From assembly GCF_000165425.1 (NCBI RefSeq), contig NW_001798969.1, positions 233,420 through 297,419 on the forward strand: 64,000 bases of DNA. The letters are read 5' to 3'. The notes beneath the pieces are model-generated. The model had not been told where the DNA came from and ran no database searches. It saw nothing but the letters and a program-made list of their open reading frames with translations. Positions 10,956 through 63,180 of the stretch are shown one piece after another (the stretch's first letter is position 1; each line of letters starts with the position of its first letter). The translations under genes were made by a program, and so were the position numbers. Origin of the DNA: Paramecium tetraurelia (lineage: Eukaryota; Ciliophora; Oligohymenophorea; Peniculida; Parameciidae).

Positions 10956-11154
10956 AATAAATAAATTATTAATGATATGGATTACGTAAAGTTGTTGTGT
11001 ATTATTAATTCAAAAATTATCAATTATAAATAAATTCAATTAATATTTATCCTCAAATGTACAAATAATAAATTAATCCATATTAGAAGATACTCAGGTT
11101 TTCATTATTATTGAAATTGTAGATAAATTGTAAAATTAAATGAACTAAAATATA

Positions 11155-35367: not shown

Positions 35368-37669
35368 TCAAGCAAATATTAACATAATAGCCTCAAATTA
35401 CATAATATTTGGCTCAGGTGATCCGAATAAATGATTTTTTGCATGTGCTTATCCATATTGACTAAATTAATAGGCATATCCTAAATTTGATGAACCTTTC
35501 TAAAAATCATTCATGATAATTATATCCTAATACCCATATTGTATCTGGGATTAACAAAATAACATTGTATAACTTTTGTCTTTTTAAGTATAAATTTCAT
35601 CGTGAGTCTACGAAAATAAAAATGATTATTGCTATTCGTCAGTTTGCCAACTTCCACTTATTAAACATTAACAAGGTGAAAATCCACCAAAAATATATTA
35701 AGTTCTTGATTTAAAAATCATTAATAAATTAGACTTTTTATTTATTCTACTCATCAACGCACTGAAAGTATTTTAATTACAATTGTAAGAAGAATCTATC
35801 AAGTATTTTTTTTTAATGGTTCTTCTAGTTCTTTCTTCTATTTTTCTGTAAATTTTTTAGGCATAATCGTTTAACAGTATTCTTGTATCTCCTGTTGACC
35901 AAGACAACTCAGAAAATGAATAAGCTTGCTTTAGTTCTGAGATCTATTCTAAATACTGATTTTTATTCTGTGTTATTTGATTTTTATTCTGTGCTAACAA
36001 ATTATTAAGTTTTTCTATTTGAATTAAACCGTTTTCAATCTCAGTTTTCTATTTTTTATTAAGAAATTCCAAATCTGTAATTTTCTTTTTATATTGATTC
36101 TCTAATAGTAATAATTTTTCATATTATTCTTTAGAAGTTTATAATTCATCAACATTCATTAAACTTTTCAATTTAGCTTGCCTCTCCTAGAGGATTATTA
36201 ATACAAATCTTATTATAATAAAATTGAATCAGATTCTGTTTCCTGTTTTAGCTATGTTAAATTTTCAAGTTTTCCTTTTTATTTTAATGCCTGTTCCTCT
36301 TATTCAAATTTCCTTAAAGAATTAAAGGAATTTTCAAAGAAGGAAAAATATTAATCTTAGATAGAGGATCTTTTAAGAAATTCTAATATTTCTAGGTCAT
36401 TTTGACTGGTATCTTTGCAATCATCACTATAATCTTGGGGCTCTAAATAAATACATGCATTAAAGTTTTAGAGCCATTACATTTAATTTTCTACTAGTAA
36501 GTTTTCTTTAATTAACTCTTCTAATACTTTCTTTTGATTATCGAAAAATTGCCAATCTTCTTAATTTGAAATTTATTCACATCTTTTTTATTAATCAGTT
36601 TAACCAAGAATTTTAACAATTTCATGAAGACTTTGTTTATCTTAATTTTATAATCTAGTTGTTTTCAATTTCTTAAGTTATTCGTAATATTTAGGCTATT
36701 GTTTTAATTAATCATTTAAGGATTAAATCATTTTATTCAATTCATAATTATACTTTTCTTATAATTTTTTAATGAATCCAATTGCTGAACCAAGTCTTGA
36801 TTGCCGTTATGATCTTTTTTCGCTCTGATCTTTAATGTACTCATTCCATTTTTCTTCTGCCTTTATTAATGATATTGTTTTAGCAATAGCATTATTCCCT
36901 CTAATTAAAAGATCTTATGCACATTCAACACATAAAAATGGGTTTGTTTATTCAAATTCTGTTTGATTTAAGTTAAACATAATAATCTCCATATTATGAC
37001 TTTCACATATCAAATTTACTGCTGGGGTTCTCTAAAAATAAACTATATATTTACTTTTTGTTTATCATCAAACAATAAATTAATTTATTACTTCAGTTCG
37101 ATTGTTTATATGCCTGTTTCTTCCTCAATTATTTATTCAGAATTCGATATTAATTATCTAAATTTCAGCATGTATTGGGAAAAATCATAAGTTTTTTTTA
37201 GATCTAAATCAGGAGAAGGAATAACAAATTTACCATCTTCCTCATAACAATTTTACAATAATTTAATACTATCATCCAATATTGTAGGTTCAGGAACTTT
37301 TTCAATTTTTTATTATGTAGCTTTTAACTTTGACTCTATATAATTAAAAACACTTTAAATAGATTTTTAGAATCTTTCTTCAACTAATTTAAACTATGTT
37401 TATAATTTTGTAAAATAGTCTAACTTTTCTTAAGTTTGTTGATTATTAGTTTTCTGTAACTATTCATTTAAAATTTCATTATTTTTGATTGCTTCTTCAT
37501 AAAGAACAATCTTTTTAATTCCAATTTTCTCAATTAAACATTTCACACAATAGTATTTTTTTTGATCATTTTCTTTATTTAACTCCTCTGAAAGGTCCAC
37601 AGCAAGAATTTAATAACCTTTATGTTCATTTTTAATGCATTCCTTTACAACTCCTTCCTTCTGTATCAT
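35368..37669 (-). pseudogene. TLDc family, copy A (one frameshift)
   Basis: ATG 37669-37667, intron 37032-37054, TGA 35370-35368. Order: a Cys/His N-terminus (EGVVKECIKNEHKGYQI...KKYYCVKCLIEKIG), a helical part, a second Cys/His unit (ICESHNMEIIMF...PFLCVECAQDLL), long coiled coils, and a C-terminal TLDc-like domain (KKSNLLMIFKSRTQYIFGGF, SQTHDEIY, SSNLGYAYQFSQYGQAH, LFGSPEPNIM). Near 36183-36192 the frame breaks: QQSSR should run into ERQAKLKSL. Total length minus intron is one base short of a multiple of three, so one base is missing. It also reads through a 12-nt remnant of an intron that copies B and P1 keep. Possibly a young pseudogene or a sequence error. Confidence 0.72.
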
Positions 37670-38379
37670 TTCTTAATAATTGAATATTTTCCATTCAAAT
37701 TCTATTATTAATATTTAATAATAGAATCACAAATTTTATGGAATGGTAATTTTAACATAAAAATTATTTGAGCTTTTATTTGCAACTGATCTAAGGTAGT
37801 AGGATAACGAAGGCTTTGAAAAGAAACAAAATTAAAGCATAAGATCAACATTAATATTCAAAAAAAAATATATTCCTTTCGATGTATATTAATTTTAATC
37901 TTATTCATCTATGTAAATAAGCAAATAAAATAAATGGATTTTTTTCTAAATTATAGAAATGATATCTTTTAATCTTAATGCATGTTATATTTATATACAA
38001 TTAAATATTCATATGGAGTTACTTTTTTATTAAGTAATAGGAATATTATATTGATTTCAAGCAATCAATATATCATTCTATAATTTTAATGGCCTAGTTA
38101 ATATGAGTAGATTATTTTGGTGTTAAAACTTAAACCATTACATTTAAGTAAATAATAATGAAAAGGGTTACTATTAAATTAATATATAAATAAATAATTT
38201 CATACTATTAAAGAAAATAGCAAAATTTAATCAATATATAATTAACTCAAAGCAGATTAGTTAATTTCAAGACCATTTATCTAAGGACATTCAAATTATA
38301 TCATCTATGACTCATAAATATTGTTGATTTAGATTGTTATTTATTATATAATTTGATATGATTGATTATAAATATGATT
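37670..38379. other. Intergenic between TLDc copies A and B
   Basis: 710 nt, AT-rich. About the last 100 nt (38280-38379) match, in reverse complement, the 3' flank of TLDc copy P1 after 61535 (both contain TTTATAATCAATCATATCAA), so the duplicated unit extends past the stop codon. Nothing else recognised. Confidence 0.6.
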
Positions 38380-40604
38380 TCAAACAAATGTTAACATGAT
38401 AACTTCGCATGCTGTGATATTTGGCATAGGGGATCCAAATAAGCGATTTTTTACATTATGTATATTATATTGATTACATTAATATGATACACCTAATTGT
38501 GATGATCCAGATTAAAAGCCTGAATTTATATAGAGATCATTTAACCCAAAGGCGAATAGATCTTTTGTAAAATAAATTGCTTTTGATTTATCTTGAATAG
38601 GATAAAATTCTTTGTTGGTTTAAGAAAATAAAAATGATTATGCTTGTTCATCTATTTGATATGCTCCACTTTATATTAAAAATTAACAAGGACTAAACCC
38701 ACCAAAAATGGATTCAGATTATGACTTAAATACAAACAATAAATTAGACATTTTATCTATGCTTTTGATAAAAATATCTGTATATAAGCCCTAATTCTTT
38801 GAAGAATACAACAAATATTTATTTTTTATTTTTTTATTAGTTCTTTTCTCTAAGTATTAATATAATTCAGATGCGTAATCTTTGGTTAATAATGATATTT
38901 CTCCTTTTACAAAGGAATGGTTTCTTATCTTATATATTTATTCTAATTCTTCAATTTTATCAGAAAGCCAATCAATATCTTTAATCTTAGCTTTTGCTTA
39001 CAATAATTATTCATTCGATTTTTCAACAAGTTCTTCTTATTCCTTTAACTTTTATTTATTCTAATTATCTTATAATAATAATTCATCTAATTATAATTAG
39101 GTCCTTTACAGTTCATCGATCTTCTTAAAGCTTTCCAATTTAGTTTAGTTTTCTTAGAATAATTTATACCATTTTTATTAATTCAAAAGTGCTTCATTTT
39201 GATTTTCCAAATCTTATTATTACAACTTTGTAAGTTTTCCTTTTTGTTATAATTCCTGTTCTTCTTTTTTGAAAGAACTTAAAGAGTTAAATGACATTTC
39301 AAAGAATGATAAATATAAATCTTGAATAGTTGATTTTTTAAGAAATTCTACTAATTCTTATTCATTTTCTGAATCATTTGATCTTTTTGGTTCTAAATAA
39401 ATATAATATTATACATGTATCAAAGTTTTACAGCCACTAAATTTAATTTTCAACAAGTAAGTTTTCTTTAATTAATTCATCTAATACTTTCTTTTGACTA
39501 TTGTAAAATTTTGAATCTTCTTAATTTGAAATTTATTCTTACTTTTTTTATTAATCTGTTTAACCAAGAATTTTAATAATTTCATAAAGACTTTGTTTCT
39601 TTTAATTCTATAATCGAGTATCTTTCAATTTCATAATTTATTCGTATTCCTTTGGTTCTTTCTTTAACTGGTCATTTAAAGATTAAATCATTTTATTCAA
39701 TTCCTAATTATACTTTTCTTATAATTTCTTAATGAGTCCAATAGCTTAATTAAGTCTTGATTACCTTTATAATCTTTTTTCACACTGATCTTTAATGTAT
39801 TCATTCCATTTTTCGTCAGCCTTCTTCAAAGATATTGTATTAGCAACAGCCTTATTACCTCTAGTTAATAGATCTTATGCACATTCAACACATAAAAAAG
39901 GGTTTGTTTATTCAAATTCTATTTGATTTAAATTAAACATAATAATCTCCATTTTATGACTTTCGCAAATAAAATTTAAAGCTGGAGTTCTCTTTTGTTT
40001 ATCATCCATCAGTAAATTAATTGAGCATGTCTATTCTATAGTCATTATTTCTTTGTCTACATCTTGCAATTATTCAAAATTTTCAAAATTAATAAATTAT
40101 TTTTTTTATTTCAATTAAAAATTCTGTAATTTCCTTATAATCTATATTGGGAGAAGGACTTGCTATTTTACCATCTTCCTAGTAACAACTTGACAACAAT
40201 TTAATATCGTCTGTGATAGCAGATTCTTGTACTGATTGTAATTTTTTCTATTCATTATTTATTTATGCATCTAGCTGCTTCTTTAAATCCTCGAACTTGG
40301 TCTAATATTCTCCTTATATCAATTTTATCACCTCAGATAGTTTTTAAAAACTCTCCTTTGTTTATTAATGTTTTTGGACTGTATTCTTTTTTAACTCTTC
40401 ATTCACAAATTTTCCCTTATTTTTTGCTTCTTCATAAAGAATAATTTTTTTAGTTCCAATTTTCTCAATTAAGCATTTCACACAATAGTATTTCTTTTAA
40501 TCATTTTCTTTATTAAATTCCTCTGAAAGGTCCACAGCAAGAATTTAACAACCTTTATGGTCATTTTTAATGCATTCCTTTACAACTCCTTCTTCCTTTA
40601 TCAT
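38380..40604 (-). pseudogene. TLDc family, copy B (one frameshift)
   Basis: ATG 40604-40602, intron 39393-39414, TGA 38382-38380. The same domain plan as copy A. Its N-terminal third matches copy P2 most closely (TKFEDLKKQLD, SVQESAITDDIKLLSS), while from QCEKRLQRQSRLNQAIG onward and into the 3' flank it is nearly identical to P1. One extra T in a TTTT run (about 40077-40092) shifts the frame just before FENFEQLQDVD; length minus intron is one over a multiple of three. The first family intron is precisely absent (KQKRTPAL reads straight through), as in P2. Pseudogene or homopolymer error; a mosaic of P1- and P2-like parts. Confidence 0.72.
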
Positions 40605-41347
40605 TTCTTAATTTATTTATTCATTTTTTATTGTTCTTGTTAGTTATTAAATTTGATTAATAGAATTGCAAAAATATATAGAATGATAGAATTTCAATTT
40701 TATCCCTAAAATAAAATTGAATCAATTTTTAGAGTTCTGGTATGTAGACTACTTTAGAAGGTTTTATATAATTTGAAGATCTAATAATTTGTCTTATGCA
40801 ACTTTTAATAAGATAATAGATCAGATAGAAATGAATTATTACTTCTCAATTTTCAGAATCCAAAATAATAATAATATTGAAGGTTTAATTGATTCAAATA
40901 TAAGTTTAAATAATTTATCTAATTAATCCAAACAATTAATCTCAAAGTTGTCACTAAAGTACGAAAGAAATTATTATATGTATAGAATCGCAAAATTAGG
41001 AAACTTGTTAATTTCATGAATACCAATATTTGCCGCTGTTATCCTTAGAGCAGAAAACAATTATCATCATCGAATTTATTGTGAGCCTTCATCCAAAATA
41101 ATATAATGTTTTAGAAACAGAATTTGTCTGGTTAATTAATTCCATCTTAATATTAACAAATTTTGGAATTAGATCCATAATTGAGAAATTTAAGGAAGCA
41201 ATAAATGAGCTATTTAATATAAAATTAAGATTTTTTCATATTATGATAATATATATTTTCAAACACAATAGAATATTTTTTCTCTTTAAATAATTATGAT
41301 TTTATTGGTTTTTTCATTAAAAAAATTATTACCTAAGATTGATTGAT
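40605..41347. other. AT-rich intergenic
   Basis: 743 nt between divergent starts. No domain, repeat or RNA recognised; presumed promoters only. Confidence 0.5.
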
Positions 41348-41689
41348 ATGTCTCTTTATTGTTCTGATCCATTTGATTGTTCAGATAATTCGTAACATGA
41401 TGAAAAAATCCAATCTAATTAAATGGCACTTTACTAAAATCATGTAATAATATTTTAGATTTCTTAGGGGACGAGTCAACAAGTAAAAATAAAATCTAGT
41501 GATAACAAATTTAAAGTATCCATTAAAGATAAAGAACAAGTGGTTTACAGATAAAATGAAAGCGATTATGACTCTTAAAGAATTTAGAATACTTATAAGG
41601 TATCTTAAACCAATTATTAAAACCCATATAATGGATAAAATTAAGTTGTGACCAAATATAAGGTCACCTAAAAGTCTTAATTTAACTGA
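41348..41689 (+). CDS. Small polar hypothetical protein
   Basis: ATG 41348, intron 41444-41467 (24 nt), TGA 41687-41689; 105 residues. N-terminus MSLYCSDPFDCSDNSQHDEK, then a basic, polar, Gln/Ser/Lys/Asn/Tyr-rich sequence (QVVYRQNESDYDSQ, NQVVTKYKVTQKSQ). No domain, signal peptide or membrane segment. Supported by the spliced frame alone, so confidence is moderate. Unknown function. Confidence 0.45.
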
Positions 41690-42178
41690 ATCAGATAAGA
41701 AAGTGATTCTATATTTATTAATAGAATAATTTAAAATTATAAATTATATTAATCCTCCAAAAATCAATAAATGAATTGAATTATAGCAAAAAATTTAAGG
41801 TAATTGATTCCATGTTATTAATGAAAAAGAATCTTATACATATTGAATGATTTAGGCAATTAAGTTAAATTTGTTTGCACTTCTTTATAGAATATCATTT
41901 AATAATTCATTATCCTGTTTTATATAATGATGTTGAATTAAAGTAACTTATTTATACCAATCAAATGAGTTTTAATTTCTCTGGCTTTGTTGAAAATTAT
42001 AATTTTTTATTCTTATTCTTATTGCTTATTAATTATTAATTATGAATAAGAATATTCAAATATTGAGAATAAAAATACTGTTAAATTGGATAGAGACAAA
42101 TCAATAAATATACATAGAAAGCTTGTAGAAATTAAAATGGACATAATTTATAGTTAATAATAATTGGAAATATTTTAC
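41690..42178. other. AT-rich intergenic, convergent
   Basis: 489 nt. Stops in all frames, A/T runs, no feature recognised. Confidence 0.5.
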
Positions 42179-42918
42179 TCATTCTCCTAAATCTTTATAT
42201 TCTAATGCTCTTGTTAATGGTAATGTTTATGGATAGACTTTTTCTTATTCTAATTCAATTTTGATATCCCCTAGATACAGTTCATTATATTCCTCAATGG
42301 ACATAAATCTTTTGTGCAGCAACATGTTAATATCATCTAAATTGATTGGGACATCGTTTGCTATTTTATTTTGTTATTTGTCTTTTTAAGTTTTTGCACT
42401 GTGTTTAATTCCAGCATTACATACTTGTTAATACAATTCCCAAACTCTCTCTTAACACTAGGCTTCAGTTTTATCCATGTCTGACAATTGTGGGCCAGTT
42501 TAGAATAAGTTTTCACAATACCACCTGTCAAAACACCTTGTAGGGTTGTCCTCATTCACAGTAACAATATTAATCATGCTATAGATGTTCTTTTCCTTTC
42601 TATACTCAGTATACAGATTGCGCATCCAAAGATTCATTACATGTGATTGAGTTTCGACTAGATGTAAACTAAAGAGACCTCGAATTAAGAGAAAGCCTGA
42701 GATTTAACCTTGAGTGTCACTCAACTCTTTAATCTAAAATCAAAGGATAATATAACTTATTTCGTCAAAACTTATTCAACGTCGATTTTTTGAATAGCAC
42801 TTTCACTAAAATAAGTAGCATAAACCATTCTACTAATCGGCACTTGTTTTTCTTCTCTTTTCTCCTTAACAATGTCATATAATGAAACTCTTTATTCGAC
42901 TTGAATTTCTTAATTCAT
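42179..42918 (-). CDS. BLUF-fold protein, TEX47-like
   Basis: ATG 42918-42916, intron 42734-42756, TGA 42181-42179; 238 residues. A BLUF-like fold is suggested by ISRMVYATYFSESAIQ, then DTQGQISGFLLI-RGLFSLHLVE (compare the BLUF 'ItG.L....g.F.Q.LEG'), a helix SHVMNLWMRNLYTEYR, and NEDNPTRCFDRWYC in the C-terminal strand. Where photoactive BLUF domains have Phe-x-Gln-x-Leu-Glu-Gly this has Phe-Ser-Leu-His-Leu-Val-Glu, so the flavin-contacting Gln seems to be absent. That is like animal TEX47, which is linked to sperm and cilia. Starts 48 nt downstream of the MCM8 stop on the same strand. Confidence 0.65.
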
Positions 42919-42966
42919 ATTGATTAATTTATATATATAATTAATTAATATTATACTTCAATCAGA

Positions 42967-45098
42967 TCATCTTTTGTAGTTTAATTCATAAACATTGTTT
43001 CCTCTCATGATGAGCATGCAGTCATAATTTAATTTGCTTATGAAATCACCTAAATCTCCAACTTATAGATTTATCTTTCTGGCAGTGTTCTTCAATTCCT
43101 CCATTGAAAATTCATAGGAATCCTTCTACAATGAAACCTTATGCAATTCATCCAAGAAGATTTAAGTTTGCTTGGGTTTTGATAAGGTACCAATGTTTTT
43201 GGAATTGTTGATCGAACTGGCTTAACCCTTTTTGTTAGTCGATTGATTGCCCAATCCACTGATAAAACAATCGAATCTGCTTTCTTCAAAAATGTCAATT
43301 GCAAATTGTGCATCTTCTTCAGTTACTTCTTATCTCAAGCATAATTTAGCCTTTGCTTGAGACAATCGAATAAGTGATTCTAATTATCTACTTGTAATTG
43401 GCATTCCAAATGCAGTTTGTCTAATTTTCAAGTAATAAGAAGCTATAAGCTTTTAGGCTCCTAAAGTAAGCACCGATTTAATATTTTTTACATGGGCAAT
43501 AATCTTCTTCATCAATTGATATGGCAATTCTTAATTAATTTGATTGGAGTGTAAACGTTCATTTAAAGTTCTATAGGCATTGGGAGTTTTCACATCATCA
43601 GTATTATTGAATTTGATTCTTGAAGTTTTCATATTATGAAAATTCATGATATGTTCAGACAACTTCTAATCTCTTTCCATATCTGGTTCATCTATCAACA
43701 GGTAAATCAAATCAAATCTAGATAACAACGTATTTTAAATTTTCAAGTTTTCGATTAGTGATTTAGTTTTATTAAAATGACCTTATGCTGGATTGGCAGT
43801 TGCTATGATAGTAGTTCTAGCATAGAATTAACACATAACAGCACTTTTTGCTAAAGTGATCGTTTGCTGTTCCATTGCTTCCAACAAAGCATAATGTTGA
43901 CTCTACATTTTATCAATTTCATCCAAACAACAAACTCCATTATCAGCCAATACTAATGCACCAGCATCTATAATAGTATCATCATTCTTATGATTGACTG
44001 AACAAGTTAAACCGCATTGTGAGACAGCAGTGCCTGAAACGTATATCGAACGAGTTGAAAGTAAATGAGCAAATTTCAATAACTGACTCTTTCCTTAGCC
44101 AGGATCACCTACCAATAAACAATGTGAGGCATTTCTGTTACAAGTACTACCTCCTACTAGAGACAAAAGTAACCCAGCTTTTACAATCTCATGTCCATAA
44201 ATACTTGGACAGAAGTTATTAATCAAAGCATAAAACAACTCTCCACTTTTGGCCAGATCATTGACTGTCTTGATTTCATGTCTTGTAAAGCTTTCATTAA
44301 TTTATTCATGTTTAACATGATAGGCTTGTATGTATTTGACATACAGAGAACTCTTTTGTTCATCTTGGATTGTCTTCACTATCCCATGGACTATTATCTC
44401 ATCTCCTGACATAAAACAATTCACATAGAGATCTCTCAATTCCACTTCTATTTACAATTCATTCAGTTTGATTTTCTAGTATAATACAGCATCACTTCTA
44501 TTCCTATCTAGCTTCATAGTATTAGAACTCCCGCATTTATTACATTGATTCACCTTTGGAATAGACCCATCTGAATTAACATAATATTCTAATTTTATTT
44601 TATTTAATTACTTTCATATTCATCGCATGAAATACAAACAAAACAGGCTCTCTCTAATAATAATTTCGATGAACCAGTTGTAATGATGGTTCCCATGATT
44701 GCTATATATTTGCCAATATCTTGTGAGGCTAATTTTTTTGATAAGGGAATATTATGAAGTCGGCAAATCACTTTTTTGTTATTATTTAAACTTGAAATTG
44801 CCAATGAAATTGAGTTAATCCAATCCTGAGGGTCATTTATGAATAAACTTTGAAGTTGTTCACCATCATCAATGAGTTTGAATAATTGTTGGATGTCAAT
44901 CTTGCATTCAATCAAATTTGGAGTATGTTGATATTCAATTATTGAATCATTTTCTTGGAATAATTTGTAAAATAAGATTATCATATTATGAACATTGTCT
45001 TGGAGATCGATTGTTTCTTTAGCAGGTTTGTTGAAATAATCATTCCAAATTGTTAGTAGATGGTTATAATCCTTATTATTTTATACTTATGAAGCCAT
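42967..45098 (-). CDS. MCM8: MCM8 helicase
   Basis: ATG 45098-45096, intron 44589-44611, TGA 42969-42967; 702 residues. Zinc motif CISCDEYE...CNKCGSSN across the intron, OB segment FMSGDEIIVHGIVKTI, Walker A LLVGDPGQGKSQLLKFA (about 325), Walker B CCLDEIDKM (about 383), Arg finger LLSRFDLIYLLIDEPD (about 450), then SEHIMNF, ITSRQLESLIRLSQAKAKL and a winged-helix tail (KINLQVGDLGDFI) that matches MCM8 rather than MCM9 or MCM2-7. MCM8 works in homologous recombination repair and meiotic recombination. Adjacent to a TEX47-like gene. Confidence 0.88.
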
Positions 45099-45603
45099 AG
45101 AATATAATTATTTTAAATAATTCAAATTAAAATTCCCATTATTTTATTTTATACTATCACTTTGTATTGAGTGATTCCTCACTTATATACATTAACCCAT
45201 TTATTCATATTTAAAAAATTAACTAATTAATTGGTAAAATAATAATAATAATAAAATGTTATTGTTTTTCAAATATATCATTATATATACATTCCCCCTA
45301 TTTCATCAATCTACGTTTCAATATTAAAATGTGATTAATCGAAGTCTCATTATATTGACATCAAATAATTTCAATTTATAATTGTTATTTGATTCCCTTC
45401 CATTTAATAATATTATTGTTAGTTTAAAATACTTAAACTTGTGACATAAGATTTTAAATAGTTTTCTTTAGTTTTAACCTGCTAATATAGTAGTCTATTG
45501 GTAATTTGAAAGCCCATCCTTGAATACAATGGTTTCCCTGATATTCAATATCATTTTAGCAGTTTAATTCTTCATATTGAAATCATGATTTTTATGAATT
45601 AAA
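45099..45603. other. AT-rich intergenic, divergent
   Basis: 505 nt between the MCM8 and kinase starts. Contains a short (AAT)n run near 45238-45256. Otherwise nothing recognised. Confidence 0.5.
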
Positions 45604-47070
45604 ATGTAATCTTATGACAAAGCATTATTTAATGTACAAGTGATACGGAAACACTTCTTCAAGGACAAAGTGTACCAATTATATTTATTTGCTGATGAAT
45701 TGGTTATGACTGATGTAAGTTGATCTTCAAACTAGGATCTGACTAAAACTCCAAAATACAATTTAAAAACGAATTTAACAACTACGATAAAGTGGATATG
45801 TGAGAATAAGAGGATAGTGGCTTTTGAATTTTCATATAACGGCAGATTGAAAGAGGTCTATGGACAAAAGTTGAATCTACTCAAAGAGATGCTTGCTGGG
45901 AAAGTATTTTTCAGTCCAGTGTCCACCTTCTACTAATTCCATATGGAAATAGGCAGCGGAATGACTGGATCAGTATATCGGTGTATATCCACAGAAAACA
46001 GCGAGGAGTATTTCGCAATCAAGAAAGTAGACAAGATGAAAATAACCCAAAATGATGGAGCAATTGTATTTAATTCTTAAACCCTAAGCCTCAACTAATA
46101 CATGAGCTCAGTCTATTGAACTAATTATAGCATCCTAGCATTGTTAAATTGAAGGAAACCTATGTGGATCAACAAAACTATTATATCGTGATGGAATACA
46201 TAAACGGGAAGACTTTGTATACAGAATTGTAGAGTAGAAATTACGGACTCTCGGTTAATGAATCGATAAAGATCATGAAAGTAAGATATGGATAGAGTCT
46301 TAGGAATTATTGGAGGCAATTATATACATTCACAATAAGGGTATAATGCACAGAGATATCAACCCTTTGAATATAATGAAAGCCGAAACTGTAAAGCTGA
46401 TTGACTTTGGCTTGGCCAGAAAGGTTAGAAATTAGTTAATATTTCCCTCTTCAGGAACCCCTGGATATATGGCTCCAGAGATCATTAACTTCAATAAGGA
46501 CAAACCCTACGATGAGAAAGCAGACATCTATAGCCTTGGATGTGTTCTGTTTAAATTGTATGAGATCACATTTTAACTCAAAGGTTGACTGGGGAGAATC
46601 TATTTACTACAAAATAGAGCAAATAGACTATATACTAATCAAACAAGCAAGGAGTTTTTGAATTAAAAAAGTAATTGCAACATCCAGAATGCAATTCAAA
46701 TAAAATGGATTAATTGTTCGTATGATCATTAATAAATATATAGATTCTTCTTCCATATATGCTGGAATCTAATCCACAGTCGAGACTAAACGCAAAGGTT
46801 TGTCTAACCATTCTAGAGGAAATCGAAACCAACAATCTCCAGGTTGAAAGACTAATTAAAAAGATCTTAATTAGAAAATAATTGGCTTTCAATACATCTG
46901 AGGACTATTAACAAGATAAAAAGAGTGATGAGAAATCTTAAAAAGGTAAGTTTCGATAATCTATTGATGCATTATCAAAAAGGAGTTTGGATGAAATTTC
47001 AGTGTTTACAAAAAATGTTATGTTACAAAATTAATAACGAGTTATACTTCCTTAGAAAAAATAACCTTGA
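45604..47070 (+). CDS. Protein kinase with N-terminal PH-like region
   Basis: ATG 45604, introns 45715-45735, 46066-46088, 46281-46303, 46558-46583 and 46720-46743, TGA 47068-47070; 449 residues. The first 100 residues look like a PH-type beta domain ([20 protein letters not shown]). Kinase motifs follow: [90 protein letters not shown] and NPQSRLNA. The usual Lys of HRDxKxxN is Asn (HRDINPLN); otherwise the active site is complete. The PH-kinase order resembles ciliate CAMK-type kinases. A basic tail follows the domain. Confidence 0.88.
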
Positions 47071-47380
47071 AACGTTAATGAATCTTTTCTATTTCAAAAT
47101 GTAATTGTTATAGATACAATACAATATGTATAATGCTCAAAAATGAATATATTTTCATCCAAGTTTTCGTCTGCCAATATATCATAAGGATGCCAATTCA
47201 TATCTTTAATTTTCAATTATCTTTTAGCTGTTTCTTAATTTAATTTTTCTATTATTTTCCATTCTATATTTAGTACCTTCTTCAAGCTATAGCTAATTCT
47301 GAACTTAACATCCAAAAATACCTTAATCAATGAGCAAATAAAATTTATAATAATAAAAAATATTTATATATAGTAAAAAT
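47071..47380. other. Intergenic, convergent
   Basis: 310 nt, AT-rich. One frame stays free of TGA past the kinase stop but lacks coding character. Nothing recognised. Confidence 0.5.
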
Positions 47381-47914: not shown

Positions 47915-47940
47915 TAATTTAACAACTATTTATTAATATT
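47915..47940. promoter_or_regulatory. 26-nt divergent intergenic gap
   Basis: 26 AT-rich nt between the divergent ATGs of the small basic protein (minus) and the MGC-type pseudokinase (plus). No motif recognised. Confidence 0.4.
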
Positions 47941-49752: not shown

Positions 49753-49791
49753 TAATTAAATGAATAAAATACAGCAGATATATTACAAAAT

Positions 49792-51331: not shown

Positions 51332-51363
51332 TAATTATGTGTTTATTTAATTAAAATAATTAA
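51332..51363. promoter_or_regulatory. 32-nt divergent intergenic gap
   Basis: 32 AT-rich nt between the ATGs of the GPHR gene (minus) and the Aurora-like kinase (plus). No motif recognised. Confidence 0.4.
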
Positions 51364-52672: not shown

Positions 52673-52707
52673 TGTTTTTTTACTAAGACTTTACAAAAAC
52701 ATAAATT

Positions 52708-53316
52708 TCATAAGTTTTCCATAAACTTTTAAGCTCTTTGGGTGTTTTTCATTGATTACACTCTATCATGTTCTCTTAAATGTTTTGTTAATTCATCTGT
52801 AGTAACAAATCTCATCTTACAATTACTAAATCCGCAACTATATGGCTTTGCTATCTTAATATACTATCCATTTACTAATTCAATTTAATATCTAAATCAA
52901 ATGAAAAGCTACTTACTCTTCTCTTTTGTTGTCCTCTTGCACCGTATTTATTGCAGCTGATAATAATATAGCATCCCTCCCTGATTTATCTATTTTCTTT
53001 AATTGAGTATTGGCATGTTAAACTTCATTCTTATCCATCCTATCATTTGTTCTACGATTTTCAAATAGCATTGATCCAAGGGCAAATTTATTTACTTTAT
53101 ACGGTCGTGTAGTCGATCTAATTACTACATTCATTACTGATCTTGAATAGCAGAGTCAACAGTCTTTTCTTTATTAAATTAATTGGATTTGGATTTCTAC
53201 GATTTTGATTCTGATCTAGATCGAGATCTAGATCTAGATTTGGAAGATTTCGAAGATGAAGATGATGATGAGGAATGATGTTTCTTTTTATGGTGTTTCT
53301 TTGATTTCTTTTTCAT
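52708..53316 (-). CDS. RS-rich protein with one C2H2 zinc finger
   Basis: ATG 53316-53314, introns 52892-52916 and 53118-53137 (20 nt), TGA 52710-52708; 187 residues. The N-terminus is Lys/His then Ser and Arg-Ser repeats (KSRSRSRSRSES), a splicing-factor-like tract. A conserved-looking middle follows (ALGSMLFENRRTNDRMD, DKSGRDAILLSAAINTVQED), then one classical C2H2 finger, CGFSNCKMRFVTTDELTKHL-REH (Cys-x4-Cys-x12-His-x3-His). Probably a nuclear RNA-processing protein by composition; not matched to a named family. Stop 35 nt from the Aurora-like stop. Confidence 0.78.
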
Positions 53317-53509
53317 TTTTATATTATTTTATAAAATTTAATTATCTCTTTCATTTTGCTTATAATTAAATTCTCTAAATATAATTAGCATTTTTAAGAA
53401 CTATTGTAATCCATATGGAATCCTTAAAAAGAATGTGAACTATATTAATAAGCAATATTATTCGTAAAGATATAATTTTTTAAATTAGCATATAATAAAC
53501 ATCACCATT

Positions 53510-54778
53510 TCATTATATATGCAGAATTCCTGTCAATATATTGTAATTTTTGAATTTGGGTTTTGATTGCTAGTTCGAGGAATCTGTAAACTCAATTGGT
53601 TGAGGTAGTGATTTCTTTGATTATTTAGATTTCGGAGTTTAGGCTTTACTTTGATGTATTTATGAGTAGCCTGGACCCTCTTGATGTACGGGGTTTATGA
53701 ACTATTTCGATTTCTTTGATTGTTTAGATTGTTTTGATGATTACGAGAGCGGTGTCTTCAATGGTGTTTGTGCAAGTTACTGCGGTTTCAAAATTTGATT
53801 TGAAATTTGGTTTGGATTATAGGTCTACTCTTGTTGTAGTTGCTATTACATTTTCTAATATTTTAGCATGTCTTAATCAAGCAAATGCAATTATTTATTC
53901 CTTTCTTATGCTTAGTAATTATCTGAATAAATTTGAGGCAGTTTCTATTGACTATTATCATTTAGTTTAATGTTGTATGATTATAAGGATGGATTGTGGC
54001 CCAGTTATTTCCTTTAGTTTGATAATTCATAATTTTCATTTTCATATTGTTTATGCATATTGTAATCCTTTAATTTGTTTTCTAATATCTTCTGTTTTTC
54101 AAAGGCAATCTTTTATTCCACTCTTAGTCTTTCTTCTTGTTTTTTGGCTTGAATTTCCAGTATTTTTCTTTTCTTTTCCTCCAATTACTTGTTTAATTCA
54201 TTTTAGTAAGATTATGCATCTCCTCTCTAAGCTTGAGCCAATTGATCGGGATCAGTTTCTTATACTTTTAATAACTTTGATTTGATTTGTTACTTCTGGT
54301 TCAATTTTTGTTGGATGACAGAATCATAATTTTCGCGTAGTTTTCTTGATTCTTCATCTTTGAGAATTTTGATTCTTTCTAAACTTTTAATCTCTTTTAA
54401 TTTCTCTTACTTGATATCCTCTTATTCGAGTAATAAACTCTGATATGACCTCTCTTAGTTCATTTTTTTTCGAATTAATAAATGATTGAGATTGTCTAAA
54501 CTAGTTTCAATTTGTTTAATTTTTCTTTGTTCCATTTCTTTTAATTTCTTAGATTCTCTCTACCTAAGAGTTTCTAACATCTAAGATTCTAAATGCTAGT
54601 CTTATTGATGTTAAATTATTTTTTATTATTATTTCAATTTCATGTCTGTTTCCAATTCTTCCTTGTATCTTTGCTTCCTCTACTATTAATCATATTTTTA
54701 TTGATTCTCATTTAGTACTTTTTCAGCCATTTATTTCTGAACCATCCCAGCCCACTAATGAGACAGTTATTATGTCAT
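53510..54778 (-). CDS. Long coiled-coil protein
   Basis: A single uninterrupted frame from ATG 54778 (or Met at 54730) to TGA 53512-53510, 422 residues, no intron. Residues 15-270 are an almost continuous coiled coil rich in Gln/Glu/Lys/Leu (SQMLETLRQRESKKLKEMEQ, KKRKILEIQAKKQEERLRVE). The last 110 are Ser/Gln/Pro/Lys-rich with SKQSKQSKKSK repeats. Plus-strand ORFs at 53734-54285 are shadows of it. A cytoskeletal or basal-body role is plausible from composition only. Confidence 0.7.
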
Positions 54779-55058
54779 TTCTAACACTTTTAGAATTAGT
54801 TATTATTATTATTTTAGTAAATAATTAAAAAGATTCCTTCGTAAAATTAATAATAAAATAGAATGATTCTATTTCTTGTTAACTAAAAATATATCATAGA
54901 ATTTAATTCTTAAACCTGATAAAATAATTAAGAGTGAGTTTTGTTTAAAAACAGTTATAATTTTTATATTTTATTCTAATATTTTGTCATTAAATTATAA
55001 AGATGTATAAATGTTTAATAAACAACAATTTGTGTTAAATTAGATAAGATTTTAACAA

Positions 55059-58000
55059 TCACTTAAAAATTTTGGTATTGATTAATTCTCTTTTTACATT
55101 TGCCATGATCTTTTCATAGTCAGATGGATCATATTTCTTTAATATCTTTTAGGCTAAAAAACAAGGTGACCAACTGACCAATACAATTACAATGACATAA
55201 AAGAAGAATTAAAAAGTCATAGCTGAAACCAATAGTTGATTTGGGAACCACATGATGGACAAAATATATATGAAGGCAGATGCAATATTCGATATGATCA
55301 TTACAATGTGCAAAGAATGCAACTAAAATATTACACTCTAAAATTACTTCACTCAATGTTAGAGCATATTGATTAAAAATAAGGGCTGTAAAAGCTACAG
55401 TTTCAATTTCCAAGAAGATATTCTTAAACATAGCCAGAGCCAAAATCATAATTATAACTCCCTGGAATATAGATTTCCAAACCCAAACCATAAATGTCTT
55501 GGCATTGAGATCTCTACCTTTCTGTAAAGACCTATAAAGTGGAGGATATTAAAGTGCTATTTTAATGTCAACATCTTCATCAAATATAATTGAAAATACT
55601 GGAAACATTCTAGCCTTTAATAAATATAGATACGTGTAAATTGTAGAATAACCAAGTAATAATCCGCCACTAAAGATGCTGATAGACAAAAAGTAGAACA
55701 CAAACATAAAAACAGCTTGAATAACTGAAATGATTAATCCTCTATGAATAACAAATTATGATAATAAGGCACTCCTTTTGTATGATAATCTTCCATGCCA
55801 GAGTAAGAGAACATTCAAATATTTGAATTTGATTATCGAAAAATCAGATGCCAATGCAGCCTATTTCCCTTCTTTACCTTCAATTCCAATTCCAACATCT
55901 GCTGATTAAATCATACCAACGTCATTTCCTCCATCTCTAATTTGATTATAATTATGATATCATACCCAATACATGCAACTACCTTCTTCGTATAGAACTT
56001 GATGCACTCTGTAACTTATGCTTTTTGAGTTGGAGAACAACGACAACAAACTACTGATAAACTCTTAGTGGCAATAGTGAAAAATAATTCCTCAAAATAT
56101 GTTAGAGCAGTATTTAAACTAGTTCCATCAATTACGAGTAAATGATTATTAGTATCAACACCAAATGTATTAATTTGTTATTAAAATTTCTCAGGGTCGG
56201 AAGTCTCCTTGATTAAAAATATCTATTAGGTTGGTGACTTTATTCCACTAGATATTGCTATACATATTGCAGTTTCAATCTTATCTCCTGTTAACATCCA
56301 CACATTTACACCTGCATTTCTAACATTTTCCAAAGTAGAACAAACATCTTCTTGTAATTTGTCTTCTACACCAGTAATGCCTAGAAATTCCATATCTTTT
56401 TCTAACAATGAAATTGCCTTCTAAATTGAGGTTTCCCTATTTTCTATTTACTCATTTGCCTAATCAAATTTCATCTTCCAATTTTCATATTCTTATTTTG
56501 TAAGTAATTTTTAAGTGATCACAAGTGTTCTAAACCCTTCTCTTGCTAAGTTCTCACATTCCTCATCTATGAATCCTCTTTAATGTTCTTAGACCAATGA
56601 TTTCATTACTGCATCTGCTCCTTTTACATAGAATATATATCTATCTGCTTCTCTATTATATAAGATGATGCCCATTCTTTTTGTCTCACTTGAAAATGGG
56701 AAGTTGTTTAAGATTTCATACTTTTGTTTCCTTTATATGCAATCCTTTATTGTAATTTGAATCTAATCTCTTGATAATAATTCAATTCCTATTTCTTCTG
56801 CTATCTTCACAAGTGCAATTTCATCAGGAGATGAAGCTTAAAAGGTCTTTGGATTCTCTCCATCGTATATAGGAGTCACGTTATGACACAAACATAATGC
56901 AAACATTAAATCTCTAAACACTTAATCTCTTTCTCTTTTTAGTCTTAATTTAGAGTTATTTTTATTCAAAAAGTTTACTACATCCTATAAAGGGTATTCA
57001 TTTAATTTGCATTATTCAATGAGTATTTTTTTCATTTCTTCTTTGTCTTCCTCTGAAAATTGAGCTGAAGCCAAAGATAATTTTTTAAAGATCATATCAT
57101 TTTAGGTCAAAGTGCCTGTTTTGTCACTTAATAAATATTGAATTCTGCCTAGTGATTCTGGGATATTTGAATTCCTCGTTATGGTTCCTTCAATTTATGG
57201 GTCAATATTTATCTTATATGAATAAACTAATTTGGCAAATTCTAAGTTTACTCTCATAGATATCTATATTTGAATGAAATCTTTACAGGTATAATATTAC
57301 TCAGCAAAACTAAGTATCTTATATATGCTACTGTAACAACGCTGGCTGTTGCTGGTTAACCACTAAAAGCAGTAACTATCCCTGCCATTATAGACATCAT
57401 AACGAATAACAAAAAGCTTAACCAATTTATTTCATCTAGAATTTATATTTATTTATGTACCATCAAGAATACCAAATTTTGTTTTTGGAGTCTTACTATT
57501 CATTGCCATTCGTGTTTCCTTACCATTCAATATTACTAATCCATATATCCTGCCTGTTGCAAGAACTGTGTTTGCCCACATTACATGTTCTAAGGATAAG
57601 GATTCCTTTTGATATCTATAATTGAACAACCCAGAAAATTAATAGATGTTTGCTATAGGTTCCTGACATGTAGCATAACTATTTTAGGATATCAATGAAC
57701 TAGGATCTGCCCCATTTTTAATCAAATTTTAAGTTGCTTTTACTGCTTTTCGTAATTTCCAATCAGTCTCACCATCGAGTTAATCAGTTCTAATAAAGAC
57801 GTTTCCTTATTCATCACTTAAATAATATTTTTCTCTTTTTACTCAGCATATAATACTAGTAAATCTGCAGGTATTCTCTCATTACATTTAACTTCTACTA
57901 TTTGGCCTACTTTAATGTTCCCACTAGTAATTTTTTGAATTCCATTTTCTGTTATTAATCCGTATTCATAATTATTTATTTGGTGATCCCTCATGTGTCT

Positions 58001-58468
58001 TTGAATGTCGTCGTACAATTCCTTCAGTAAAGATATTGCAACTACCAAAGCAAGTGGTCCTAAATAATCAATTAAAAATCCTTTAATAGCATGTGATTAT
58101 ACCAACTTTTAAGAAACTTATGCATTAAGTTATTGTTAAACCTAAATAAAATAAGTTTATAAATTAATGGAATTGTTCAAACAAAACTAAGGGTAAAAAT
58201 GTAAATGCATTGTATTTTGAGTTTTTTATGAAATTGTTCTATTTATTAATTGGATTCACTTTCCCATCCAAGTACACATCTCTCTGGCACTTTTGTATTT
58301 ATATTCCGAACACAAAGTCCTTGAATTGATCAAACTTGTCTTCCTATTCAATTACGACATTTTCTTTTGTTTCTTCAATTGAAAAGGGCTCAAATCTTTA
58401 TTTCAACAAAGGTGAGCGATTCTCTTACTAAATTTTGTCATTTAATAAATTACCTGTTCGCTTTCCAT
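55059..58468 (-). CDS. P4-type ATPase (phospholipid flippase)
   Basis: ATG 58468-58466 ([15 protein letters not shown]), introns 55323-55347, 55937-55965, 57264-57286, 57436-57460, 57817-57842, 58081-58102 and 58428-58453, TGA 55061-55059; 1077 residues. Motifs in order: [52 protein letters not shown] (the DGET loop), [33 protein letters not shown] (phosphorylated Asp, about 407), [37 protein letters not shown] and [12 protein letters not shown]. It moves aminophospholipids to the cytoplasmic leaflet, usually with a CDC50 partner. The QLDGET and IIPISMRV motifs match the ATP9/Neo1 branch better than ATP8. Length is normal for the class. Confidence 0.93.
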
Positions 58469-59300
58469 ATAAATTTAATAATAGTTTTTTCTTAATTTTT
58501 TTTGAGATAATAGGCGATTTTCCTAAAATTTATTAAACTAAAATTGTCAAATTAGAATCCGAAAATTTCTGAGATTTTTATTTAATACCAATAAAAATAA
58601 CTTTTCTAAATAAATAAACTATAAATCAACGAAAAAGATTAAGCAAAAAAATTGATGGGTTAAACGAATAATAAACAGAATTTTGGCTACAGCTTAGAGG
58701 TGTTTTATTCATTCATTTCTAATCCTACCATTAATTTATTTTACCAAGTTATATATAATGGCCTTTTAAATCAATACAATAGAAAACAAATGTACCTCAA
58801 TATAAGAAATTTACTTAATTCTCTTGTTTCTCCTAACATGTCATGTATTTGTTTCTTTCTACGTTCTAAATTTACCAAAACTTTGAAAAACTGATCATTA
58901 GTAAATTTCCAAACACATATTTCAAGCCTATAGTATAAAAATCATTATATTTTCTTGAAATACTAATGTAAAAGCAAAGTTTTATTAAAGATAATTTTAA
59001 TAATTAAAGGTTCAAGTTATATAAAAATATTTTAGATATATTGGAGAGCTGAATAAATCAATTTAGTTTTATTTCAATAATATGTATATATTATGATGTA
59101 CATTTATTCCATACTTTTAATTCAGTTCTTGTCATTAAATGGTAAAATTTGATTATTCTTTGACATCTTGTAAATTTTCTACCAAATTAATATTTCTTAA
59201 ATGAAGAATCAATATAGAATTCTTATTCTATTTTTAATTTCTATTAATCAATTTTTATAATTACCAAGAACTGTAAATAAATGATTAAATAAATTAATAA
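58469..59300. other. AT-rich intergenic, divergent
   Basis: 832 nt, AT-rich. A plus-strand ORF (58700-58894) shows no coding pattern. Promoters only, as far as I can see. Confidence 0.5.
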
Positions 59301-61535
59301 ATGATATAAGAAGAAGGAATTGAAAAGGAATGCATTAAAAATGATCATAAGGGTTGTTAAATCGTCGCCGTTGAACTTTCAGAGGAATTAAATAAAGAAA
59401 ATCATCAAAAAAAATATTATTGTGTTAAATGTTTAATTGACAAAATTGGAGTTAAAAAGATTGTTCCATATGATGATGAAGCAAAAAATAAGGCTAAATC
59501 TGAAGAGTTAAAAAAGAATGCAGTCTAACTGTTAGAGAGAAATTAAAAACTAATATTAGCAGTCAAATCAATAGAGCAAATTGGTTTAACACAATTTGAA
59601 GAATTGAAGAAATAGTTAGAAATACAAATTAATAATTAATAGAAAAAATTGATATCAATTATAGAGATTACCACTACAAACTCAGATTTAGAGCTTGTTT
59701 CGGCTTTTTATTAAGAGGATGGTGGGCTTGCAAGACATTCCCCCATTATAGATTATACTAAAATTACCGATTCCATAATCTAAATATAAACATTATTGTC
59801 ATAATTAGAAAATTTTGAAAAATTGCAAGAAGCAGACCAAGAGAAAATGAAATTTGAATAGCAATGCTACAATGACTTACTAATTGATGAAAAAATAAAA
59901 GTAAGTATATAATTTATTTTTAGAGAACTCCAGCGTTAAATTTGATGTGTGAAAATCATAAGATGGAGATTATTATGTTTAATTTAAATCAAACAGATCT
60001 TGAAAAAACAAATCCTTTGTTGTGTGTTGAATGCACATAAGATCTTATAACAAGAGGTAATAATGCTGTTTTTAATGTTATATCATTAAAAAAGGCTGAA
60101 GAAAAATGGAATGAATACATTAAAGATCAGTGTGAAAAAAGATTATAAAGGTAATCAAGACTTAATTAAGCTATTGGACTCATTAAAAAATTATAAGAAA
60201 AGTATAATTAGGAATTGAATAAAATGATTTAATCTTCAAATGACCAGTTAAAGAAAGAACCAAAGGAATACGAATAAATTATGAAATTGAAAGATACTAG
60301 ATTATAGAATTAAAAGAAACAAAGTCTTTATGAAATTATTAAAATTCTTGGTTAAACAGATTAATAAAAAAAGTAAGAATAAATTTCAAATTAAGAAGAT
60401 TCAAAATTTTACAATAGTCAAAAGAAAGTATTAGATGAATTAATTAAAGAAAACTTACTTGTTGAAAATTAAATTTAGTGGCTGTAAAACTTTGATACAT
60501 GTATAATATTATAATTATTTAGAACCAAAAAGATCAAATGATTCAGAAAATGAATAAGAATTAGTAGAATTTCTTAAAAAATCAACTATTCAAGATTTAT
60601 ATTTATCATTCTTTGAAATGTCATTTAACTCTTTAAGTTCTTTCAAAAAAGAAGAACAGGAATTATAACAAAAAGGAAAACTTACAAAGTTGTAATAATA
60701 AGATTTGGAAAATCAAAATGAAGCACTTTTGAATTAATAAAAATGGTATAAATTATTCTAAGAAAACTAAACTAAATTGGAAAGCTTTAAGAAGATCGAT
60801 GAACTGTAAAGGACCTAATTATAATTAGATGAATTATTATTATAAGATAATTAGAAAAAATAGGAGTTGAAGAAATACTAAGAACTTGTTGAAAATTATA
60901 ATGATTAATTATTGTCAGCAAAAGCTAAGTTTAAAGATTTTGATTGGCTTTCTGATAAAATTGGAGAATTAGAATAACTTTATAAAATAGGAAAACATTC
61001 TTTTGTAAAAGGAGACACTTCATTATTAACCAAAGATTACGCATCTCAATTATATTAATACTTAGAGAAAAGAACTAATTAAAAAATAAAAAATAAATAT
61101 TTGTTATATTCTTCAAAGAATCAGGGGTTATATACAGATATTTTTAACAAAAGCATAGATAAAATGTCTAATTTATTGTTTGTATTTAAGTCATATTCTG
61201 AATATATTTTTGGTGCATTTAGTCCTTGTTAATGTTTGATATAAAGTGGAGCATATCAAATAGATGAACAAGCATAATCATTTTTATTTTCTTAAACCAA
61301 CAACGAATTCTATCCTATATCAGATAAATCAAAAGCAATTTATTGTACAAAAGATCTATTAGTTTTTGGTTAAAGTGATCTTTTTATAAATTCAGGCTTT
61401 TAATCTGGATCATCACGATTAGGTGTATCATATTAATGTAATCAATATAATATACCTAATGTAAAAAATCGCCTATTTGGATAACCTGAGCCAAATATCA
61501 AAATATGCGAAGTTATCATGTTAACATTTGTTTGA
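59301..61535 (+). CDS. TLDc family, copy P1 (intact)
   Basis: ATG 59301, introns 59901-59923 and 60501-60522, TGA 61533-61535; 729 residues. First Cys/His unit (GIEKECIKNDHKGCQI ... YYCVKCLIDKIG, about 6-45), helices, second Cys/His unit (LMCENHKMEIIMF ... PLLCVECTQDLI), then long coiled coils from about 250 to 540. The C-terminal TLDc-like domain runs about 580-729: KMSNLLFVFKSYSEYIFGAF, SQTNNEFYPISDK, AIYCTKDLLVFG, SSRLGVSYQCNQYNIP, LFGQPEPNIKICEVIML. TLDc domains occur in oxidation-resistance (OXR1) proteins and can bind the V-ATPase; Cys/His plus TLDc resembles a ciliate-specific expansion. This is the only copy here without a frameshift. Confidence 0.8.
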
Positions 61536-61985
61536 AATATTATTTATAATCAATCATATCAAATTATAAAATCAGTTTTATTTAACAATTTAAATCAAAA
61601 TGCCCTTCCTATTATATAATTTGAATATCCTACTATTATATTAATTAATTTATTATAATCAGGGATTTTAGTTACATTAACTTATCATCATTTTTTCTAT
61701 TTTCTATAATAATAATAACAAAATATTCATCTATTTATTATTTTAAGAGTCCATCAGAATGAATATACAAATGACTGCATATTATTTATTTAGTATCATT
61801 ATCTATGTTTTATTTTCATTATGCTCCTCTTCAAGGACTTCATTAACTTATAATTAAGAATGGCTTATCAGTTGAAAATCTAAACAAAAGTTCAAAAAAA
61901 TTTTTTGTGAATTCCATAAATTTTTGATTTTATTATTTATTATAAATAATAGAATTTGAATCGATATATATTCAATAATTAAGAA
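61536..61985. other. Intergenic between TLDc copies P1 and P2
   Basis: 450 nt, AT-rich. The first ~100 nt are homologous to the 3' flank of copy B. No other feature. Confidence 0.6.
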
Positions 61986-63180
61986 ATGATATAAAAAGAA
62001 GAAGGAGTAAAGGAATGCATTAGAAATGACCATAAAGGGTTGTAAATTGTAGCTATTGACCTTTCGGAGGAATTTAATATAGAAAATGATTAAAAGAAAT
62101 ACTATTATTGTGTGAAATGTTTAATTGAGAAAATTGGAACTAAAAAGATTGTTCTATACGATGAAGCAAAAAATAAGGCAAAATCTATGAACGAAGAGTT
62201 AAAAAAGAGTGCATTTCAAACACGTCAATAAACAAAGGAGAGTTTTTAAAAACTATCGGAGGTGATAAAATTGATATAAGGAGAATATTAGACCAAGTTC
62301 GAGGATTTAAAGAAGCAGCTAGATTCATAAATAAATAATGAATAGAAAAAATTACAATCAGTACAAGAATCTGCTATCACAGATGATATTAAATTGTTGT
62401 CAAGTTGTTACTAGGAGGATGATAAAATAGCAAGTCATTCTCCCAATATAGATTATAAGGAAATTACAGAATTTTTAAGTTGAAATTAAAAAAATAATGT
62501 ATTAATTTGAAAATTTTGAATAATTGCAAGATGTAGACAAAGAAATAACGACTATAGAATAGACATGCTCAATTAATTTACATATGGATGATAAACAAAA
62601 GAGAACTCCAGCTTTAAAGTTTATTTGCGAAAGTCATAAAATGGAGATTATTATATTTAATTTAGATCAAACAGAATTTGAATAAACAAATCCTTTTTTA
62701 TGTGTTGAATGTGCATAAGATCTATTAACTAGAGGTAATAAGGCTGTTGCTCATACAATATCTTTGAAGAGAGCTGACGAAAAATGGAATGAATACATTA
62801 AAGATCAGTGTGAAAAAAGATTATAAAGGTAATCAATATTTTATTCAGCTATTGGATTCATTACTAAATTATAAGAAAAGTATAATTAGGTATTGAATAA
62901 AATGATTTAATCCTTTGATGACCAATTAAAAAAATACCCTAAAGAATATGAATAACTAATAAAATTGAAAGATACTCGATTATGGAACTAAGATAAGCAA
63001 ACCTTACATGAAATTATTAAAATTCTTGGTTAAACAGATTAATAACAAAAATAAGAATTAATTCAAAATTCAGAAGATTCATAATTTTTTGATTGTCAAA
63101 AGAAAGTATTGGGAGAGTTAATTAAAGAAAACTTACTCTTAGAAAATTCTATTTAATAGCTCTAGAACCATCATTTATGA
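61986..63180 (+). pseudogene. TLDc family, copy P2: truncated and frameshifted
   Basis: ATG 61986. Both Cys/His units are present (EGVKECIRNDHKGLQI, YYCVKCLIEKIG; ICESHKMEIIIF, PFLCVECAQDLL), but a TGA in frame (62480-62482, after TEFLS) interrupts it. One extra base relative to copy B restores the frame (EIKKIMYQFENFEQLQDVD). The homology then runs through QCEKRLQRQS to KENLLLENSIQQL and stops at TGA 63178-63180. The coiled coil and TLDc domain are missing, so the copy is about half length. Both family introns are absent. Span minus the extra base is 398 codons. A decaying partial duplicate. Confidence 0.78.

Follow-up and report, generated by a model that had tools for sequence, protein, structure and literature searches.

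Introduction

Proteins of the TLDc/OXR family include Oxr1, NCOA7, mEAK7 and TBC1D24/Skywalker. We know of no TLDc/OXR family with two N-terminal Cys/His units followed by a long coiled coil. This N-terminal module is found in a cluster of four paralogous genes, called A, B, P1 and P2, in the last 64 kb of contig NW_001798969.1 (C16) of the ciliate Paramecium tetraurelia. Like the TLDc/OXR proteins, A, B and P1 have a C-terminal TLDc domain above the Pfam cut-off, and the nearest folds are those of TLDc proteins; unlike them, the C16 copies have an eroded GPxFGxGxD stretch, which their paralogues keep. Taken jointly, the evidence makes it likely that these genes form a young branch, expanding locally, of a TRIM-like ciliate superfamily, shaped by inverted duplication of a tandem pair and by gene conversion, with a TLDc domain that would act on the V-ATPase.

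TRIM (RBCC) proteins consist of a zinc-binding N-terminus, a coiled coil and an exchangeable C-terminal domain, SPRY being among those found there. The Paramecium genes are similar in having a putative zinc N-terminus, a putative coil and an exchangeable C-terminal domain (TLDc, WD40 and, more weakly, SPRY-like). They differ in that Pfam gave no RING or B-box match at E ≤ 1 for P1 or any of seven relatives, in their four-ligand units and in carrying TLDc or WD40 at the C-terminus.

Yeast Oxr1p was reported to induce disassembly of the V-ATPase (PMC11094088) and mEAK7 to bind it (PMC9263379). In Tetrahymena, stage-specific V-ATPase disassembly has been described during mucocyst maturation (PMC12752500); in the main text of that paper TLDc never occurs, and Oxr1 occurs once, in the references. 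Duplication of TLDc genes, together with duplication of WD40 genes, was reported for Paramecium bursaria (PMC7702705), and the available text of that study gives counts and an oxidative-stress idea, without a Cys/His module, gene conversion or domain swap. A further parallel is the young leucine-rich repeat gene family of Tetrahymena, which forms local clusters and for which ectopic recombination or gene conversion was proposed (PMC6564038). It resembles the present genes as a young clustered ciliate family with such exchange, and differs in domain and scale; no TLD domain and no inverted pair of pairs figure in the available part of that report.

Organization of the cluster

The window, i.e. 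the whole stretch of DNA analysed (64,000 nucleotides), and the cluster both run to the end of the 297,419-base contig. The genome searched comprised 69.07 Mb in 231 contigs. TGA is the sole stop codon, TAA and TAG being sense codons, and introns are about 21-29 nt long. Gene models were made with an own predictor trained on the open reading frames of the window, and all introns are predicted from sequence; the window-wide prediction merged A with its downstream gene (33000-37669). The features of the cluster, in window coordinates, are as follows.

35368..37669, minus: A, the counterpart of P2, with two Cys/His units, coil and TLDc; open throughout if 36181-36203 is spliced
35389..35889, minus: TLDc domain of A (PF07534, 56.7 bits)
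36181..36203, minus: candidate intron of A, 23 nt, GTA..GAG, covering the reported break
37032..37054, minus: intron 1 of A, 23 nt
37670..38379, minus: spacer between B and A, homologous in part to that between P1 and P2 (61536-61985)
38380..40604, minus: B, the counterpart of P1; carries a one-base insertion, lacks intron 1 and has intron 2 (39393-39414)
38398..38901, minus: TLDc domain of B (PF07534, 82.4 bits)
39058..39775, minus: B side of the recent conversion tract (counterpart P1 60140-60857)
39752..40425, minus: B side of the tract in common with P2 (counterpart P2 62168-62841)
59301..61535, plus: P1, intact spliced model of 729 aa; two Cys/His units, coil and TLDc (TLD E = 2.2e-26)
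59331..59432, plus: Cys/His unit 1 of P1, C-x4-H ... C-x2-C
59901..59923, plus: intron 1 of P1, 23 nt, GTA..TAG, phase 0, just before unit 2
59948..60034, plus: Cys/His unit 2 of P1, C-x2-H ... C-x2-C
60501..60522, plus: intron 2 of P1, 22 nt, GTA..TAG, phase 1
61011..61517, plus: TLDc domain of P1 (PF07534, 90.0 bits)
61986..63180, plus: P2, partner of A; frame break; without TLDc

An earlier sequence-only reading of this DNA had described four paralogues, two per strand, about 20 kb apart. Self-BLAST confirmed the arrangement, with about 19 kb between the pairs. The Cys/His units were recognized in all four copies, as had been claimed, and the proposed TLDc domain in all but P2 passed the profile check, the three PF07534 scores (90.0, 82.4 and 56.7 bits) standing against a cut-off of 24.5. 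Foldseek was run on a model of the C-terminal part of P1; among the first 15 PDB hits (E 3.0e-6 to 1.4e-3; next hit E 1.0), 14 were by title TLDc proteins or V-ATPase complexes holding one, including zebrafish OXR2, NCOA7, Skywalker, mEAK7 and Oxr1; the title of the remaining hit, 8ar9 at rank 4, concerns methods. Searched with a single sequence, the solved structures gave no TLDc match, and a 10-sequence profile matched Skywalker alone among them (E = 0.0047).

The eight putative ligands, four per unit, are invariant in all six aligned two-unit sequences. In the best of five models of P1 unit 2, strands lie around C..H and the C..C pair heads a long helix, with a local predicted distance difference score (pLDDT) of about 70-80; by eye, this order may be named treble-clef-like. 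Long helices extend from C-x2-C onward in this model, and the coil was judged from the sequence and this one model.

Inverted duplication and gene conversion

Self-BLAST of the window gave two collinear inverted blocks (38170-40676 with 61750-59229; 36465-37894 with 63168-61758), which reach into the spacers from both sides. Since the collinearity includes the spacers, it was concluded that a tandem pair was duplicated in inverted orientation, B corresponding to P1 and A to P2. Between the spacer blocks of B-A, about 275 bp (37894-38170) face only some 8 bp in the P1-P2 spacer, an indel.

The suggestion that the copies are near-identical is correct for parts of them. B and P1 are 98-100% identical across some 700 bp, and B and P2 88-99% across some 670 bp, whereas the other homologous coding windows show 46-95% identity. 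Synonymous divergence (dS) between B and P1 is, block by block, 0.64 (unit 1), 1.35 (linker), 0.30, 0.38, 0.03, 0.00, 0.21 and 0.15 (TLDc), and the two genes have identical runs of 342 and 214 bp. Between B and P2 it is 0.35, then 0.08, 0.08 and 0.05 in the linker, pre-intron and unit 2 blocks, then 0.40. Such jumps in identity and dS within single gene pairs go beyond selection on the protein and argue for ectopic gene conversion. The conversion appears to have come after the inverted duplication, B being like P2 in much of its 5' half and like P1 in the middle.

The DNA of B (38300-40700) had no match outside C16 in a genome search that skipped very common words. Tree and alignments were restricted to models that contain the TLDc domain or were re-modelled; in the TLDc tree of 17 sequences, A, B and P1 form a clade with support of 100/99 and a stem of 0.57, and 3 of the 14 inner branches are well supported.

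The wider family and exchange of C-terminal domains

The family extends beyond the cluster. Counted by exon, PF07534 has at least 69 matches genome-wide. Other contigs carry five seemingly intact genes, of 779-819 aa, with the layout of the cluster genes: C43 (three), C13 and C161. A sixth gene of this layout (L043, C205:241257-243700) has an in-frame TGA in an otherwise open gene. Twenty-two TLDc matches were modelled, the TLDc exon being missed or misjoined in several (e.g. C205_244094, C75_91410, C212, C128, C43_91950, C207_91060). A scan of 12 models with the C-x2-H pattern gave five shorter genes with one unit; P1 unit 1, A unit 1 and C43_96526 unit 2 escape this pattern because they are of the C-x4-H type.

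A genome search with the N-terminus of C43_12133 also matched contigs without a TLDc match. On C52 (L057) the module is followed by WD40 (PF00400, E = 7.5e-27), and the N-terminus of this gene aligned with the two-unit profile at an hhalign probability of 99.3% (E = 1.5e-20, 337 columns). A WD40-like continuation of the match was seen by eye on C29, C81 and C28 (L066-L068). The genes on C66 (L064) and C104 (L065) have, by eye, another C-terminal domain in common; that of C66 matched SPRY at E = 1.4e-4 and 22.3 bits, under the cut-off of 26.3. A longer C66 model gave no SPRY match, and neither C66 nor C104 is among the 12 matches of a genome-wide SPRY search. C66 and C104 may be broken or contain unplaced introns; the in-frame TGA codons of L043 and L064 may stem from decay, from an error or from introns that were not placed.

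C52, C66 and C104 have the intron before unit 2 in the same position. This site, common to genes of the TLDc, WD40 and SPRY-like types, clearly indicates that a single N-terminal module has been combined with several kinds of C-terminal domain.

Thus, the combination of Cys/His units, coil and TLDc, which had been put forward as a candidate undescribed ciliate family, is read as a real family with members on other contigs. The TLDc expansion in Paramecium had already been published; new are, at most, the Cys/His-coil module and the swaps of the domains behind it. Among the titles and opening lines of abstracts listed for ciliate TLDc, zinc finger, B-box, WD40 and SPRY proteins, none describes this module, most subscription papers lying outside this scope.

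Introns and the exact loss of intron 1

Of 13 genes examined, 11 have a candidate intron directly before the unit 2 motif: P1, A and nine that lie outside the window. Its position is shifted one codon upstream in C43_12133; in C161 the unit 2 residues ICEQH follow it immediately. In several genes its length is divisible by three and the predictor read through it, splicing there being deduced from position and consensus. Only B and P2 among the 13 lack it, and they lack it exactly to the base.

It is conceivable, at rather less than an even chance, that this loss came about by conversion from a reverse-transcribed message, i.e. from an intron-less segment. The loss is base-exact in both genes, the intron being kept in A, P1 and the nine genes outside, and the retention of intron 2 in B would mean that only a segment was replaced. 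However, an exact 23-bp genomic deletion, spread afterwards by B-P2 conversion or by common descent, fits too.

For intron 2, present in P1 and B, a counterpart is predicted in C161, at the same aligned place and in the same phase. A has 10 nt fewer than P1 and B at this place and is read through. Recent birth of intron 2 in P1 and B, considered because of these 10 nt, was set aside, as the C161 counterpart makes loss in A just as likely. At the same place A has an in-frame 12-nt GTA..TAG stretch read as codons (36443-36454, minus), possibly a transition from intron to exon or from exon to intron. A 19-nt GTT..TAG intron predicted in both B and P2 was rejected; in that, it aligns with coding sequence of P1 and A, and the form is rare according to the available text of PMC9612004.

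Frame breaks and integrity of the genes

The description of P1 as clean holds only with both introns (59901-59923 and 60501-60522) spliced, the removal of 23 + 22 nt giving a single open protein. In A, which had been said to lack one base, the frame does change near 36183-36192, though the alignment shows a shift of +2 relative to P1 and B, and a possible 23-nt GTA..GAG intron (36181-36203) spans it in full. A need not, therefore, be broken. Introns of P. tetraurelia were reported to start with GTA in 91.8-94.9%, to end with TAG in 70.5-76.5% and to measure 21-30 nt in about 95% of cases (PMC9612004); as the GTA start is commoner than the TAG end and 21-30 nt is the norm, the intron proposed for A is ordinary in kind. 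When lesions were simulated in five intact genes (9,226 deletions, 11,154 insertions), such an intron covered the lesion by chance in 5.6-6.1%. The intron at 36181-36203 is suggestive of an intact A, and A is probably an intact gene. Hence, the claim that only one copy is intact is right for P1 and may have to be widened to A.

The extra T of B, inside 40077-40092, and the extra base of P2, a G at 62479, were both verified by comparison with P1. No candidate intron among those found spans either insertion; splicing across the break is thus possible for A, with no such candidate for B and P2. Single-base differences are far smaller than an internal eliminated sequence. B and P2 are read, in this assembly, as recently disabled. 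The truncation claimed for P2 was also found; homology to the other copies stops at 63168-63203, near the intron 2 site, no TLDc domain was found in P2, and the 801 bp beyond match only themselves genome-wide.

The ratio of non-synonymous to synonymous divergence (dN/dS), computed in the P1 frame with gapped codons and stops removed, is 0.43 for A-B, 0.47 for A-P1 and 0.38 for B-P1 over the entire aligned coding length, and A and B have one frame break each across 2.2-2.3 kb. These values, together with the single breaks, indicate that A and B were constrained for most of their history and that any decay is recent. A recent local expansion with decay is in agreement with the earlier description; the word 'fast' was an overstatement. 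For B-P2 a dN/dS of 0.77 after the insertion site is based on 11 differences only, and P2 values from beyond the end of its homology (after 60500 in P1 coordinates), one of which exceeds 1, have no meaning and were left unused, the overall values of pairs with P2 being likewise affected.

A real possibility, although the less likely one, is that the single-base differences of B and P2 arose as errors of the consensus or the assembly, in copies that are partly near-identical and close to the contig end, and that the genes are functional, the truncated P2 perhaps excepted. The two insertions lie within about 30 bp of each other in homologous sequence, inside the B-P2 tract; B is otherwise an open frame, the window and the cluster end at the contig end, and dN/dS is below 1 over the homologous parts. 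However, the extra G of P2 is outside any homopolymer. The homology of P2 ends some 800 bp short of the contig end; the absence of TLDc is therefore not accounted for by the break of the contig.

That P2 is a working TLDc-less form and not a pseudogene is improbable. The Cys/His-coil module does occur without TLDc elsewhere in the genome, but the readable genes of this kind bear other C-terminal domains, whereas P2 has a frame break and no recognizable domain past the coil. Equally improbable is a rescue of B and P2 by upstream introns that restore the frame and leave nothing broken: frame-restoring GT..AG stretches do exist (10 for B and 12 for P2, the same 19-nt GTT..TAG and 22-nt GTA..CAG in both), but a GTA..nAG stretch of 21-30 nt rescues 18% (3,078 deletions) to 30% (3,718 insertions) of simulated lesions somewhere by chance, and this frequency led to the rescue being set aside, the more so as the stretches sit in upstream coding sequence, none spans the insertion and the intervening protein would be in a foreign frame.

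Other features of the window

Both cluster arms (34001-42000 and 58001-64000) have 22-26% G+C, against 27-32% in the sequence between them. An MCM8-like helicase gene is located between the inverted pairs (42967-45200, minus; PF00493 and MCM8 winged helix model). On the minus strand, 8930-12013 contains a tandem array of three arylamine N-acetyltransferase-like genes with a DNA identity of about 69-71%; PF00797 was matched in the two tested, and the third was assigned by DNA similarity. The first gene of the window contains a tandem repeat coding stretch rich in Gly, Asp, Gln and His (469-1073, GDGDQGHG-type). The gathered loci had no telomere-like repeats (L047 starts with a run of N).

Proposed mechanism and significance

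The cluster is best explained by birth and death of genes in a TRIM-like ciliate superfamily, the TLDc branch of which may regulate the V-ATPase. A tandem pair would have been duplicated in inverted orientation to give B-A and P1-P2, after which conversion would have swapped pieces, B and P2 sharing one exact intron loss. In the protein, the coil may self-associate into oligomers and the Cys/His hairpins may bind zinc and recruit or position the protein. The TLDc domain, by analogy with Oxr1, NCOA7 and mEAK7, would dock on the V-ATPase and shift its assembly or activity.

Several observations weigh against this explanation. The V-ATPase link of ciliate TLDc proteins is drawn from homologues only. 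The C16 copies have lost most of GPxFGxGxD, which five paralogues keep with small variations; V-ATPase binding may accordingly be lost in the cluster, and this counts against simple functional conservation there. The P1 TLDc model used for fold comparison is of low confidence (mean pLDDT 57.1; 35.6-47.5 for the other four models), as are those of unit 2 (65.8 for the best, 45.6-49.3 for the other four). Foldseek with the unit 2 model found no solved relative (8 hits, best E 4.1), and none of the Pfam zinc families matched the Cys/His units at E ≤ 1, either in P1 or in the seven relatives. Units were found in none of the eight models of the strongest TLDc loci (L001-L008); the TLDc exon is missing from several of these models, which makes the negative a weak one, and the module may be absent from some TLDc genes. 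In the domain-swapped genes, the C52 comparison amounts to 21% identity in coil-rich sequence and its unit 1 is without the C..H part in the model (the start being uncertain), C66 has an in-frame TGA between the units, and unit 1 of C104 lacks a clean model. As for A, its candidate intron ends in GAG and the rate of chance rescue is about 6%, and every intron relied on here is a prediction from sequence.

A broader proposal is made tentatively, and is somewhat less likely to hold than not. It is that Paramecium has its own TRIM-like superfamily, in which a Cys/His-hairpin and coil module, with a conserved intron before hairpin 2, was joined to TLDc, WD40 or SPRY-like domains. The TLDc branch would consist of V-ATPase regulators with an oligomerizing and recruiting stalk, diversified by inverted duplication and conversion, and its members would be candidates for disassembling the V-ATPase on ciliate secretory organelles.

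With the cluster read as a young branch of a TRIM-like superfamily, odd frame breaks become testable gene-family history, and a defined modular architecture is linked with the published yet unexplained expansion of TLDc genes in Paramecium. Should the TLDc branch act on the V-ATPase, such proteins would be candidates for the stage-specific disassembly seen at the mucocysts of Tetrahymena.

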